This document shows positions 47,232 to 50,601 of a stretch of DNA of 64,000 nt, one piece after another. The stretch is taken from contig JAIPBE010000014.1 in assembly GCA_021738725.1 (NCBI GenBank), forward strand, positions 1 through 64,000, read 5' to 3'. The position numbers were made by a program, and so were the translations under genes. Every line of letters starts with the position of its first letter. Position 1 is the stretch's first letter. The notes beneath the pieces are model-generated. The model saw nothing but the letters and a program-made list of their open reading frames with translations. It had not been told where the DNA came from and did no database searches. Origin of the DNA: Saprospiraceae bacterium. GTDB lineage: Bacteria; Bacteroidota; Bacteroidia; Chitinophagales; Saprospiraceae.

Positions 47232-48377
47232 CTAATACTGCGGAATAGAGGCATCGATTTCCTTGCCATAGGCCAGGATACCTCCTTTCAGATTATACAG
47301 ATTATCAAAGGGTTCCAGGGCTTGTAATTCCCGGATCGCTCGCGCACTTCGGACTCCGCTTCTACAGTAGATAATGACGGGCTTGTCGCGGGCTATAAAG
47401 GGCAGGAATGAAGTGATCTGTCCGACAGGTATCAATTCTCCTCCGATCTGAGCAATGGCATATTCGTAGGGTTCGCGTACATCAATGAGTTGATAGGGCC
47501 TTCCAGAAGTGCGCAATTCCTCCCATTCCACCACACTCATTTCAGTCACAGGCGTTTCAGGCAGATCCAAGCCGCAGAATTGCTGATAATTGATGAGGCT
47601 TTCGATCTTCAATGCCTCATTCTTGCGGATCTTCAGGAAACGTGTGTGAAAGGAAGCCGCATCAAACAGGAAGAGCTTTCCGGCCAGGGGCTCACCGATA
47701 CCGGTGATGACTTTGATGACCTCCAGCGCTTGCATGCTGCCAATGATCCCGGGCAGGACGCCAAGGACACCTCCTTCGGAACAGTTTGGTACTAAACCAG
47801 GGGGAGGTGGCTCGGGAAAAATATCCCGATAATTGGGTCCTCGTGTTCCATCCGGAAGCAGAAAATTGAATACAGACACCTGACCTTCAAACTGGAATAT
47901 GGAGGCATACACATTGACTTTTCCTTCCAGTACACAGGCATCATTGACCAGGTAGCGCGTCGGGAAGTTGTCTGTTCCATCGGCCACGATATCGTATTGC
48001 CGGATCAACTCGCGGGCGTTGGATGGATCCAGCCGTGTTTCATGGACCGTCACTTCGATATAGGGATTCAGGGCGCGCAGGCGTTGCTGGGCCTGTTTTG
48101 CCTTACTCTTGCCGATATCCTCTGTGGTAAACAGGACCTGTCGTTGCAAATTGCTGTCATCCACAGTATCGAAATCGACAATACCGATATGTCCGACGCC
48201 GGCGGCGGCCAGATACAACAGACTGGGGCTGCCCAAGCCTCCGGAACCGATCACAAGGACACGGGCATTCTTCAGAGCCGATTGTGCTGTCAGTCCAAAC
48301 TCAGGGATAATGATATGCCGGGAATACCGGGCATATTCCTCCGGCGAAAATGTGGCGCCCTGGTTATCTGTCTGCAT
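47232..48377 (-). CDS. moeB: MoeB/ThiF-type adenylyltransferase with C-terminal rhodanese domain
   Basis: A 381-residue E1-like enzyme: ATP-binding GSGGLGSPSLLYLAAAG (residues 44-60), Arg finger SNLQRQVLF, PGIIGSMQALEVIK, and a rhodanese domain from about residue 285 with active-site Cys338 (IIYCRSGVRSAR). It would adenylate the C-terminal Gly of the adjacent sulfur carrier and load sulfur by means of the rhodanese, as MoeZ/MOCS3 do. The zinc-binding CxxC pairs of classical MoeB are mostly missing (YRDIF instead of YRCLF, and no CPxCG later). The start ATG overlaps the 3' end of the carrier gene by 14 bp. Confidence 0.9.
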   Translation of the reverse strand: MQTDNQGATFSPEEYARYSRHIIIPEFGLTAQSALKNARVLVIGSGGLGSPSLLYLAAAGVGHIGIVDFDTVDDSNLQRQVLFTTEDIGKSKAKQAQQRLRALNPYIEVTVHETRLDPSNARELIRQYDIVADGTDNFPTRYLVNDACVLEGKVNVYASIFQFEGQVSVFNFLLPDGTRGPNYRDIFPEPPPPGLVPNCSEGGVLGVLPGIIGSMQALEVIKVITGIGEPLAGKLFLFDAASFHTRFLKIRKNEALKIESLINYQQFCGLDLPETPVTEMSVVEWEELRTSGRPYQLIDVREPYEYAIAQIGGELIPVGQITSFLPFIARDKPVIIYCRSGVRSARAIRELQALEPFDNLYNLKGGILAYGKEIDASIPQY

Positions 48378-48675
48378 GATCCGAAGATAAGTCAAGGTCA
48401 GGAATACCGCCTGCAATGGCGGGAACAATGCTGATCACGGTCTGATCATCAACTGCAGTATCAGGTCCATCCAGCTCAGCATAATCTGTATCGCCGACAA
48501 ATATTCGGACAAATGAGCGAATCTGGTCGTCTTTGTCAAGGAGGTGGTGCTGTAAGGAAGGATACAGGTGGATCAGTTGATCGATCGCGCTTTTCACCGT
48601 GATGGAGGCGGCCTCCAGAGTGGATCGCTGCTCAGTGAATTTGCGCAAGGGTGTGGGGATCATAATCGTTGCCAT
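48364..48675 (-). CDS. cysO: MoaD/ThiS-family sulfur carrier protein, CysO-like, with C-terminal tail
   Basis: A 103-residue ubiquitin-like protein with the CysO pattern: MATIMIPTPLRKFT at the start, RIFVGDTDY in the middle, and ISIVPAIAGG with the Gly-Gly at 89-90. CysO of Mycobacterium ends exactly at its Gly-Gly; here 13 residues follow (IPDLDLSSDHADR). The tail reads in frame to a TAA and overlaps moeB. Thiocarboxylation needs a free C-terminal Gly, so the tail must be cleaved, plausibly by the JAMM protein encoded just upstream. It would then donate sulfide to the cysteine synthase. Confidence 0.87.
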   Translation of the reverse strand: MATIMIPTPLRKFTEQRSTLEAASITVKSAIDQLIHLYPSLQHHLLDKDDQIRSFVRIFVGDTDYAELDGPDTAVDDQTVISIVPAIAGGIPDLDLSSDHADR

Positions 48676-48687
48676 GGAACATTGTAT

Positions 48688-49104
48688 TTAATGGGTGATG
48701 AATTCTTCAGAAAATGCTGGTCTGACATCATCCAGGCGAAAACTGCGGATTTCCTTGACCTCTTCCGGAAATACAGAGACGATCACATAGGAAAACCACG
48801 GCATAGCCTGGGCCAGGTCATGTTCAGAAGCGATGGCTGAATGAAGCGGATGAGAATGATAGATACCGACCAATTGGGTATCCCATTCCATTGCCTGCTG
48901 TTCAGCCCGGATGTAATCCAGTGGGTCAATTGCGAATCGGCGGCGTTGATCGCCCTCTTTCCCATTGTTCACCGGTTCGTACCGTTCGATGATTCTTTGG
49001 CCCTTTTCAGTGCCATACAGGAACCCACAGCACTCGTTTGGAAAATCTGCCAGGGCGTGGTCGAATATGCCCGTCATGACATTCTTCTTGATCTGTACAA
49101 TCAT
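48688..49104 (-). CDS. mec: JAMM/MPN metalloprotease, Mec-like
   Basis: A 138-residue Mov34/MPN/JAB1 zinc hydrolase. The JAMM ligands are present: Glu24 (FPNECCGFLYG) and H83-x-H85-x7-S93-x2-D96 (HSHPLHSAIASEHD). Mec of Mycobacterium cuts the cysteine off the CysO-cysteine adduct; related QbsD/HcyD proteins instead trim residues after the carrier's Gly-Gly. With a tailed carrier next door, both roles are possible. The ATG at 49104 is chosen: it lies 4 bp after the cysteine synthase stop; a longer frame to 49254 would lie inside that gene. Confidence 0.9.
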   Translation of the reverse strand: MIVQIKKNVMTGIFDHALADFPNECCGFLYGTEKGQRIIERYEPVNNGKEGDQRRRFAIDPLDYIRAEQQAMEWDTQLVGIYHSHPLHSAIASEHDLAQAMPWFSYVIVSVFPEEVKEIRSFRLDDVRPAFSEEFITH

Positions 49105-49108
49105 GGTA

Positions 49109-50047
49109 TTAAAGTATTTGTGATAGAACTTCGCTGTATTTATCCCCATTATCTGGCAGTAAGGTGACCACTCTGCTTTTACGCGTTGTGGCCGCCACTT
49201 TCTGCGCGCCAAGAAGATTGGCTGCGGCTGAAGGGCTAATGATAAGTCCTTCATGTCGAGCGATAAAACGGATCAGGTCAAAGGCTTCTCCGGTATCGAT
49301 GGGTAAGATTTCATTTGCCAGACCCGCGTCATAGATACCGGGAATGCGGGCTGTTTCCAGATGTTTCCAGCCCTCCAGGCCATGCATAGCACTTTCTGGC
49401 TGTAGCCCGATATTGCGAATCTTCGGGTTGAGACATTGCAATCGTCTTGCGGAACCGGTGAAGCTGCCGGTGGTTCCGAGTCCGGTGACAAAGTGTGTAA
49501 CCCGCCCGGAGGTCTGTTGATAGATCTCTGGTGCGGTGGTGTGAAAATGAGCCTGCCAATTCCGGGGGTTGTTATATTGATCAGCATAATAGTAGACTCC
49601 GGGTTGGTCTGCCGCCAGGTGAGCGGCTGTTTTTTGCGCACCATCTGTACCCTCCATTCGGGAGGTCAGGATCAGTTCAGTGCCCAATCCTTTGAGGATC
49701 TGGATCCTTTCCTTAGAGGCATTTTCAGGTAGGCACAGAGTGAATGGAATCTGGAGGACAGCACATATTGTCGCATAAGCGATGCCCGTATTGCCACTGG
49801 AAGCATCGAGTAATTTCTGACCCGGGGTCAATCGTCCGGTAGTAATGGCATATTTCAGGATATGGTAAGCCGCCCGAGCTTTCACACTTCCTCCGAATTG
49901 AAGCCACTCCAACTTGCCAAATATCCGAGCATGCGGATAAGGCGCCAGGGAAGCAAACTCATATAGTGGCGTGTTTCCGATCCGTTTGCTCAGTCCGGAC
50001 AGTCGTCTGACGTTGATGACCGGAGCAGTGTAGGTATGTTGAATCAT
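49109..50047 (-). CDS. cysM: PLP-dependent cysteine synthase, CysM-like
   Basis: A 312-residue fold II PLP enzyme. The start after the attenuator is KRIGNTPLYEFASL, the PLP Lys is K56 (QFGGSVKARAAYHIL), and the phosphate-binding loop is SSGNTG at 83-88, with GLGTTGSF later. The consensus NPxGSVKDR around the Lys reads QFGGSVKAR, a divergence that may relate to substrate choice (O-phosphoserine or O-acetylserine with protein-bound thiocarboxylate). The family member in mycobacteria uses CysO-COSH. Start at the ATG 50047, 13 bases beyond the terminator hairpin; an in-frame extension reaches 50182 through the hairpin and is rejected. Confidence 0.9.
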   Translation of the reverse strand: MIQHTYTAPVINVRRLSGLSKRIGNTPLYEFASLAPYPHARIFGKLEWLQFGGSVKARAAYHILKYAITTGRLTPGQKLLDASSGNTGIAYATICAVLQIPFTLCLPENASKERIQILKGLGTELILTSRMEGTDGAQKTAAHLAADQPGVYYYADQYNNPRNWQAHFHTTAPEIYQQTSGRVTHFVTGLGTTGSFTGSARRLQCLNPKIRNIGLQPESAMHGLEGWKHLETARIPGIYDAGLANEILPIDTGEAFDLIRFIARHEGLIISPSAAANLLGAQKVAATTRKSRVVTLLPDNGDKYSEVLSQIL

Positions 50048-50060
50048 GCATGGTGTATTG

Positions 50061-50094
50061 AAAGAAAAAGGGCCAGTCTGTTTCCGACTGGCCC
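50061..50094 (-). terminator. Attenuator terminator A, upstream of cysM
   Basis: On the minus strand GGGCCAGTC pairs with GACTGGCCC (9 bp, 7-base loop) followed by TTTTTCTTT. It lies 13 bases before the cysM start, after leader ORF A. A possible antiterminator: TCCGGCGG (50139-50146, last codons of leader A) with CCAGTCGGA (50083-50091, 5' arm and loop), 8 pairs with one bulged A; drawn by eye. Confidence 0.8.
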
Positions 50095-50132
50095 GTGAAT
50101 GTGGATTGTTTCTATGAGAAGACATACCGCTA

Positions 50133-50210
50133 TCAGGTCCGCCGGAGGCGAAGGAAGCAACAACAGCAATATGCTGGAGCAAAAGTGATATGGGTTTCGA
50201 CTGAGTTCAT
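50133..50210 (-). CDS. Poly-cysteine leader peptide A (25 codons)
   Basis: A short ORF from ATG 50210 to TGA 50133. Codons 15-18 are TGC TGT TGT TGC (50157-50168), four Cys in a row, with mixed codons rather than a simple repeat. The final six codons are basic (FLRLRR region). Located between terminator B and terminator A on the transcript of the cysteine operon. Read as a leader whose translation senses Cys-tRNA supply; ribosome arrest at the Cys run would free the antiterminator segment. Confidence 0.75.
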   Translation of the reverse strand: MNSVETHITFAPAYCCCCFLRLRRT

Positions 50211-50236
50211 TTGATCAATTCAACATATGGCAAAAC

Positions 50237-50268
50237 AAAAAGGCCATTCCGGAGGGAATGGCCTTTTT
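50237..50268 (-). terminator. Attenuator terminator B, between the two leader ORFs
   Basis: A 14-bp perfect stem (AAAAAGGCCATTCC / GGAATGGCCTTTTT) with a 4-base loop. A possible antiterminator for this unit: GGAGTGG (50294-50300, last codons of leader B) with CCATTCC of the 5' arm (50255-50261), seven pairs including one G-U. It is nearly symmetric, so it might also act on the plus strand. Confidence 0.85.
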
Positions 50269-50290
50269 GTCAAGATCACCAGGGATCATG

Positions 50291-50356
50291 CTACCACTCC
50301 TTCCCTTTTGGGAACGTGCAGCAACAACAAACATCCTGGAATGAATTCCTATTCAT
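50291..50356 (-). CDS. Poly-cysteine leader peptide B (21 codons)
   Basis: A short ORF from ATG 50356 to TAG 50291. Codons 10-13 are TGT TGT TGC TGC (50318-50329), followed seven codons later by GAG TGG TAG. A small hairpin TTCCC-AAAA-GGGAA (50301-50314) sits just after the Cys codons and could pause RNA polymerase or pair alternatively. The ORF starts about where transcription from the promoter at 50361-50391 would begin, so it may be leaderless. Confidence 0.75.
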   Translation of the reverse strand: MNRNSFQDVCCCCTFPKGKEW

Positions 50357-50360
50357 GCCA

Positions 50361-50391
50361 CAATGTTAATCCCTTTTTCTTCCTTTGTCAA
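50361..50391 (-). promoter_or_regulatory. Probable promoter of the cysteine operon
   Basis: On the minus strand TTGACA (50386-50391) is followed after 17 bp by TAACATTG (50361-50368), which matches the Bacteroidota TAnnTTTG box with one difference. Transcription would begin near 50355, at or next to the ATG of leader B. The only other gene nearby is divergent. Confidence 0.55.
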
Positions 50392-50409
50392 GAGACAACG
50401 GAAAGACAA

Positions 50410-50601
50410 ATGTTTTTTATGAGATGGAGGTGGAAAAAGAAAGTTGATCCTGAACCGGAAAAGGACCAGCCCCTCGAACCCGGGAGGGATTACTATGAAG
50501 AGCATGGCAGGATGGTTTTTACAGCCGAATTCCTGTTGAGGCGGGGTTATTGCTGCCAGAGTGGTTGCCGGCATTGTCCCTATTCCTTCGAGGAGGAGTA
50601 A
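50410..50601 (+). CDS. Small Cys-rich DUF5522-type protein
   Basis: A 63-residue protein starting MFFMRWRWKKK (ATG 50410, or ATG 50419), with the family core DYYEEHGRMVFTAEFLLRRGYCCQSGCRHCPY. Its C-terminal GYCCxSGCRHCPY motif has four Cys and may bind metal. The apparent ORF beginning at 50227 is rejected because its first half is terminator B and leader B antisense. The gene is divergent from the cysteine operon and shares its control region. Confidence 0.85.
   Translation: MFFMRWRWKKKVDPEPEKDQPLEPGRDYYEEHGRMVFTAEFLLRRGYCCQSGCRHCPYSFEEE

Follow-up and report, generated by a model that had tools for sequence, protein, structure and literature searches.

The window analysed here is a stretch of 64,000 nucleotides from the genome of a Saprospiraceae bacterium (contig JAIPBE010000014.1). 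Its minus strand carries four adjacent genes, encoding a cysM-like cysteine synthase, a JAB-domain protease, a ThiS-type sulfur carrier and a ThiF-rhodanese protein, a combination that identifies a CysO/CysM/Mec+ cysteine pathway operon (Table 1). The same gene set makes up the CysO-dependent cysteine pathway known in mycobacteria. The order of the genes is conserved in nearly all relatives for which enough DNA was available. In the CysO-like protein (48364-48675, minus strand) the Gly-Gly is followed by a 13-residue tail, IPDLDLSSDHADR, which the adjacent JAB protease might trim prior to sulfuration of the carrier. No match to the NIR_SIR profile (PF01077) was found in the window's genome (G000, 98% complete), and assimilatory sulfite reductase seems to be absent from it. 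The organism therefore probably relies on sulfur that is already reduced, and the cysM operon may be its main sulfur entry point.

Table 1. Features of the cysM operon and its tandem leader in the window.
Feature	Positions	Strand	Details
Promoter	50361..50391	-	TTGACA, 17 nt, TAACATTG (TAnnTTTG-like -7 box); box ends 4 nt 5' of the ORF B ATG
Leader ORF B	50291..50356	-	21 codons, MNRNSFQDVCCCCTFPKGKEW + stop
ORF B Cys codons 10-13	50318..50329	-	TGT TGT TGC TGC; segment 1; partner in the ribosome-free fold is the ORF tail/stop
ORF B tail	50293..50300	-	GGAGTGGT; segment 2; pairs with the 5' arm of terminator B
Terminator B	50237..50268	-	AAAAAGGCCATTCC-CTCC-GGAATGGCCTTTTT; 14-bp stem (17 pairs in RNA fold), then T-rich tail; kept in relatives
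Leader ORF A	50133..50210	-	25 codons, MNSVETHITFAPAYCCCCFLRLRRT + stop
ORF A Cys codons 15-18	50157..50168	-	TGC TGT TGT TGC; segment 1
ORF A tail	50139..50146	-	TCCGGCGG; segment 2; pairs with CCAGTCGGA, one bulge
Terminator A	50070..50094	-	GGGCCAGTC-GGAAACA-GACTGGCCC; 9-bp stem; T-run down to 50060
cysM-like cysteine synthase, operon gene 1	49109..50047	-	PF00291 (PLP-dependent); TIGR01138 top but below cut-off
JAB-domain (Mec+-like) protease	48688..49131	-	PF14464; longer frame possible, to 49254
ThiS/MoaD-type sulfur carrier (CysO-like)	48364..48675	-	PF02597; Gly-Gly then 13-residue tail
ThiF + rhodanese protein (MoeZ-like)	47232..48428	-	PF00899 + PF00581; PRK07878 top but below cut-off

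Upstream of cysM, a promoter-like element, ORF B, terminator B, ORF A and terminator A follow one another in the order and at the positions given by an earlier sequence-only reading, which proved correct base for base. The cysM ATG (50047) lies approximately 12 bases downstream of the T-run of terminator A. The window's genome (4.18 Mb) contains 19 TGYx4 sites; only two of them are found in a short ATG ORF with a terminator, and both are the leaders described here. Folding of the leaders, which the earlier reading had proposed as a check, gave structures that beat 200/200 dinucleotide shuffles for each of the two stretches (z -5.8 and -2.7). The leader RNA had no Rfam match at gathering score, and neither the leader RNA nor the leader peptides matched NCBIfam or Rfam. 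A DUF5522 gene (PF17653, with a Cys-rich C-terminus) is located at 50386-50601 on the plus strand, divergent from the leader, and its frame is open back to 50227 (a 124-aa ORF), antisense to leader B. Gene callers and annotation may overlook the leader ORFs, given this opposite-strand ORF across leader B.

To determine how widespread the arrangement is, we searched the 900 nt upstream of cysM for units, defined as a short ORF (60 codons or fewer, three Cys codons within five) with a G+C-rich hairpin and a T-run no more than 130 nt downstream. At least one unit was present in 68 of 98 cysM upstream regions, and two or more in 22 of the 98 loci. Cultured Bacteroidota that carry a unit include Reichenbachiella agariperforans DSM 26134 (L052, one unit) and Flavitalea sp. 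BT771 (L058). The background was 19 units in the remaining 1.41 Mb of sequence (0.012 per 900 nt). Units were absent from all 490 shuffled upstream regions and from the 12 loci of the CysK paralogue, and nine other codon pairs entered into the same finder each gave at most 8/98 regions. Several of the 19 background units are the same system one gene farther upstream. Those at L014, L017 and L061 are followed by a peroxiredoxin gene and then by cysM, and those at L105 and L110 lie ahead of sulfite reductase operons leading into cysM. Among 30 sulfite reductase loci, all from the same order (L200-L229), 19 have units and at least six of these are tandem; assimilatory sulfite reductase operons with an upstream poly-Cys unit also occur at L105, L110 and L181. 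The association with a cysM operon that the sequence-only reading described is thus borne out, but the arrangement is not exclusive to cysM: it spans the phylum, mostly as a single unit, and precedes sulfite reductase as well. Poly-Cys runs elsewhere in 13 genomes, which showed an apparent enrichment over a reversed-pattern control, were considered as further units; 39 of the 40 sites inspected were rejected as other frames of longer genes or as lacking a start and a terminator, the sole exception being L181, ahead of sulfite reductase.

The Cys clusters are conserved in relatives and the remainder of the ORF is not. Across relatives the leader peptides share the Cys cluster only, with length and all other residues varying freely. 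ORF B has a homologous leader in L002, L003 and L005, and ORF A has a counterpart in L002, where both window units are kept at a CysM identity of 80%. Mapped onto a CysM tree of 92 rows, which includes some near-identical genomes, the tandem state required 5 changes compared to 15.5 when shuffled, and it is common among Saprospiraceae. In four Balneolota loci (L086, L100, L109, and L111) a poly-Cys ORF precedes cysM with no recognisable classical terminator. The Cys run of these ORFs (e.g., ...CCACCCCCCR) ends at the stop codon and a short ACCGG-type inverted repeat is present; these leaders perhaps use another output mechanism. Most Acidobacteriota cysM loci have no unit, although two do (L124 and L129), each with a short CCC leader ORF and near-perfect pairing of 10-11 bp between the tail and the terminator arm (TCCGGCGGTGG with CCACTGCCGGA). 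Mixed Met/Cys runs (MMCMCCC, MMGCCCCMM, MCMCCC) were observed in leaders at L110:423-507, L225, L226, L086 (minus strand) and L100 (minus strand). They precede sulfite reductase or sulfurtransferase operons and possibly sense both sulfur amino acids.

The mixed synonymous codons of the Cys runs had been read as evidence against repeat slippage. This interpretation holds across the units, with 21 homogeneous runs observed against 21.3 expected under independence; codon choice is as mixed as independent draws, and we rejected slippage as the origin of the runs. The two ORFs had also been described as unrelated and not recently duplicated. The former is supported, as their 5' parts are no more alike within a locus than between loci (p = 0.63), but the latter stands only in part: terminators from the same locus are more alike than others (18.2 vs 14.8, p < 0.001), which would fit either a duplication long ago or a base composition common to both.

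The promoter match TTGACA-17-TAACATTG is not by itself above chance (3 found in a local scan vs 2.9 expected). Within the window's genus, however, all five genomes have the same element with the same 4-nt spacing. Of 56 first units that match TAnnTTTG well, 15 have the box ending exactly 4 nt 5' of the ATG, those of the genus included. A -7 box at a leaderless distance was found for only 1 of 21 second units, consistent with a single promoter. In Flavobacterium psychrophilum, the -7 box is placed at -12 to -5 and leaderless transcripts account for 5.5% of mapped mRNAs, according to PMC9723704. At that distance, the +1 position would fall on the A of the ORF B ATG. ORF B is therefore probably leaderless, as predicted from promoter spacing, and ORF A is probably reached only via read-through of terminator B.

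The sequence-only reading had pointed out that the end of each ORF can pair with the 5' arm of the terminator that follows, as in classical amino acid attenuation. Comparative analysis confirmed that this pairing is specific. Over 86 non-redundant units, the stretch between the Cys run and the terminator gave a pairing sum of 1411 with its own arm, compared to 1099 +- 25 with foreign arms (0/2000 permutations). The result was replicated in an independent set at sulfite reductase loci (29 units, mostly from the same order), with 464 vs 359 +- 14 and 0/5000 permutations. For 21 non-redundant tandem loci, the pairings X1:arm1 and X2:arm2 were both significant (0/3000 each). All of these permutation p-values are optimistic, as the units are phylogenetically non-independent. 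We do not claim cross-pairing between tandem units, with X1:arm2 being borderline (p = 0.048) and X2:arm1 absent. Pairing between tail and arm is strong for most units but weak or absent in a minority (second unit of L005, L016, L063, L082). Compensatory changes, which the earlier reading had suggested looking for in relatives, were found within the genus, where three strands co-vary between L001 and L003: the tail changes from GGAGTGG to GGGGTGG, the 5' arm from CCATTCC to CCATCCC and the 3' arm from GGAATGG to GGGATGG. The distance from the Cys run to the tail pairing (median 14 nt) was considered as a ribosome footprint and rejected, as the offset differs little with foreign arms (median 15 against 14).

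We modelled the RNA left exposed by a ribosome on the last Cys codon, which folds with a mean of -14.5 kcal/mol compared to -10.6 kcal/mol when its middle is shuffled (86 units, p = 9e-12). With the ribosome at the stop codon the mean is -1.4 kcal/mol, partly because less RNA is exposed. In the window, the stalled-state fold of unit A reaches -18.7 kcal/mol (shuffled, -13.1 +- 2.5), and its antiterminator and terminator are equally stable (-18.7 and -18.4). The antiterminator of unit B is weaker than its terminator (-13.8 vs -19.6). Terminators mostly outrank antiterminators in stability across the units, and the switch must therefore be kinetic. The pairing scheme of the sequence-only reading is supported for the tail and 5' arm but incomplete, as it had missed a 1:2 pairing of the Cys codons with the ORF tail. 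In ribosome-free RNA this pairing, which involves the ORF tail or stop, is present in both window leaders (z about -1.4 to -2.2), and as a protector it is a moderate tendency across the whole set (median z -0.7 to -0.85). The leaders combine an ORF with codons for the end product, a predicted intrinsic terminator before the gene and a conserved alternative antiterminator pairing, three features of leader-peptide transcription attenuators.

The anatomy of the leaders, their conservation, their specific pairing and their co-variation are established by sequence comparison. We consider it very probable that the cysM-Mec(JAB)-CysO(ThiS)-MoeZ(ThiF) operon is controlled by a pair of ribosome-mediated transcription attenuators placed in series, each of which reads the supply of Cys-tRNA(Cys). 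One promoter would give rise to a probably leaderless transcript beginning at ORF B. When Cys-tRNA is plentiful, the ribosome would reach the stop codon and cover the ORF tail (segment 2), allowing the terminator hairpin (3:4) to form and halt RNA polymerase. When Cys-tRNA is scarce, the ribosome would stall in the Cys run (segment 1), leaving segment 2 free to pair with the 5' arm of the terminator (2:3), and polymerase would proceed to ORF A and face an identical second test before transcribing cysM-mec-cysO-moeZ. If the leader is not translated at all, the Cys codons would hold segment 2 and the terminator would form. Because the units are in series, their read-through fractions would multiply, giving less leak and a steeper response. 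The scheme presupposes tight transcription-translation coupling in Bacteroidota; translation of the leaders, stalling, termination, the response to cysteine and the multiplicative effect are what we infer.

Four other explanations were weighed. It is unlikely, though the least so of the four, that one unit alone is active and the other is a decaying duplicate. The interchange of tandem and single states on the tree (5 changes) and the resemblance of terminators from the same locus are in line with decay, but both first and second units have kept pairing between their own tail and arm at the 21 non-redundant tandem loci, and L002, at a CysM identity of 80%, retains both window units. Slightly less likely is that slow Cys decoding is sensed as a consequence of redox stress, with sulfide or persulfide damaging tRNA(Cys) or its synthetase, and does not reflect cysteine supply itself. 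A leader ahead of a peroxiredoxin gene (L008, L014, L017, and L061) and the mixture of Met and Cys in some leaders (L110, L225, and L226) would suit such a signal, but genes for cysteine or for sulfite reduction make up most of the regulated set, as would fit supply.

Translational attenuation of the mycobacterial style, in which a ribosome stalled in the Cys run uncovers the start of the downstream gene and the hairpins serve translation or RNA stability and not termination, is improbable. It has precedent in the mycobacterial poly-Cys leaderless ORFs, which affect how the downstream gene is translated (Canestrari et al. 2020, as cited in PMC13236596); the first ORF of the window likewise looks leaderless, and the Balneolota leaders do without a classical terminator. 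It does not account for a G+C-rich hairpin and T-run after each ORF, with an ORF tail that co-varies with the 5' arm, and a second complete unit makes little sense if control of cysM is purely translational. We give least credence, and very little, to the Cys-rich peptides being products in their own right (e.g., binding metal or persulfide), co-transcribed with the operon and followed by ordinary terminators. Conserved Cys runs beside an operon that handles sulfur would be expected of such peptides; however, they share nothing beyond the Cys cluster, the nucleotide pairing of each tail with its own terminator is left unexplained, and a terminator behind each ORF would switch the operon off.

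Transcription attenuation by tandem Cys leaders resembles the trp/his/leu-type attenuators of enterobacteria, in which a short leader ORF rich in codons for the regulated amino acid, present as a run, is combined with 1:2, 2:3 and 3:4 pairings and with an intrinsic terminator ahead of the biosynthetic operon. It differs from them in the amino acid (cysteine), the phylum (Bacteroidota), the probably leaderless first ORF and the presence of two complete attenuators in series. That poly-Cys leader ORFs occur at mycobacterial sulfur genes, as the sequence-only reading had stated, is documented: poly-Cys leaderless uORFs have been reported in mycobacteria (PMC4633059), acting on translation (Canestrari 2020, as cited in PMC13236596). 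Like the window's leaders, they sit at the 5' end of sulfur or cysteine operons or close to it; they are leaderless, as is predicted from promoter spacing for ORF B. Unlike them, they have no intrinsic terminator and control translation of the next gene, whereas in the window a predicted terminator follows each ORF and is paired by the ORF tail. Cys leader ORFs without terminators have also been described upstream of actinobacterial cys operons (Seliverstov 2005, PMC1262725). These comparisons suggest that mycobacteria and Bacteroidota have both come to possess leaderless poly-Cys ORFs, coupled to output mechanisms that differ. The uORFC-8-2 motif of Rhodobacterales cysS, for which transcription attenuation is predicted (PMC8632094), also places the Cys codons of a uORF inside a stem followed by an intrinsic terminator; it has two Cys codons and one unit and is confined to cysS in Alphaproteobacteria. 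Two leader ORFs within one leader RNA are known from Salmonella mgtCBR, where the tandem attenuators respond to different signals, ATP and proline (PMC3641672); here, the amino acid run is the same in both ORFs, and every ORF is served by a separate terminator. Leader-peptide attenuators of flavobacterial amino acid operons, mentioned without detail in PMC9723704, share the phylum and the class of mechanism, and the main text of that paper has no Cys leader or tandem arrangement. Tandem poly-Cys leaders in Bacteroidota had been thought undescribed, and our literature search, outside which most subscription journals lay, found no report of them, of any Cys leader in Bacteroidota, or of two attenuators for the same amino acid in series. 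Both the phylum-wide Cys system and the same-amino-acid tandem pairs appear to be new.

The genes downstream of the units make cysteine or reduced sulfur. We regard it as somewhat better than an even chance that sulfur assimilation in Bacteroidota, comprising the cysM-CysO and sulfite reductase operons, forms a regulon of attenuators reading Cys-tRNA, repeatedly stacked as same-signal pairs of which the first is often leaderless, and whose multiplied read-through gives a steep, low-leak response to cysteine. If true, transcription attenuation by cysteine would extend across an entire phylum and to two sulfur operons that are unrelated to each other, and this would be the first case known to us of stacked attenuators for the same amino acid, an arrangement that offers a natural means of making a response sharper. 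Attenuation by leader peptides works only with ribosome and RNA polymerase running closely together, and these leaders therefore provide a test of coupling in Bacteroidota, a phylum in which Shine-Dalgarno sequences rarely serve for initiation. Should the regulon reading be correct, the coupling of transcription and translation would be tight in this phylum, for all that Shine-Dalgarno initiation is seldom used there.
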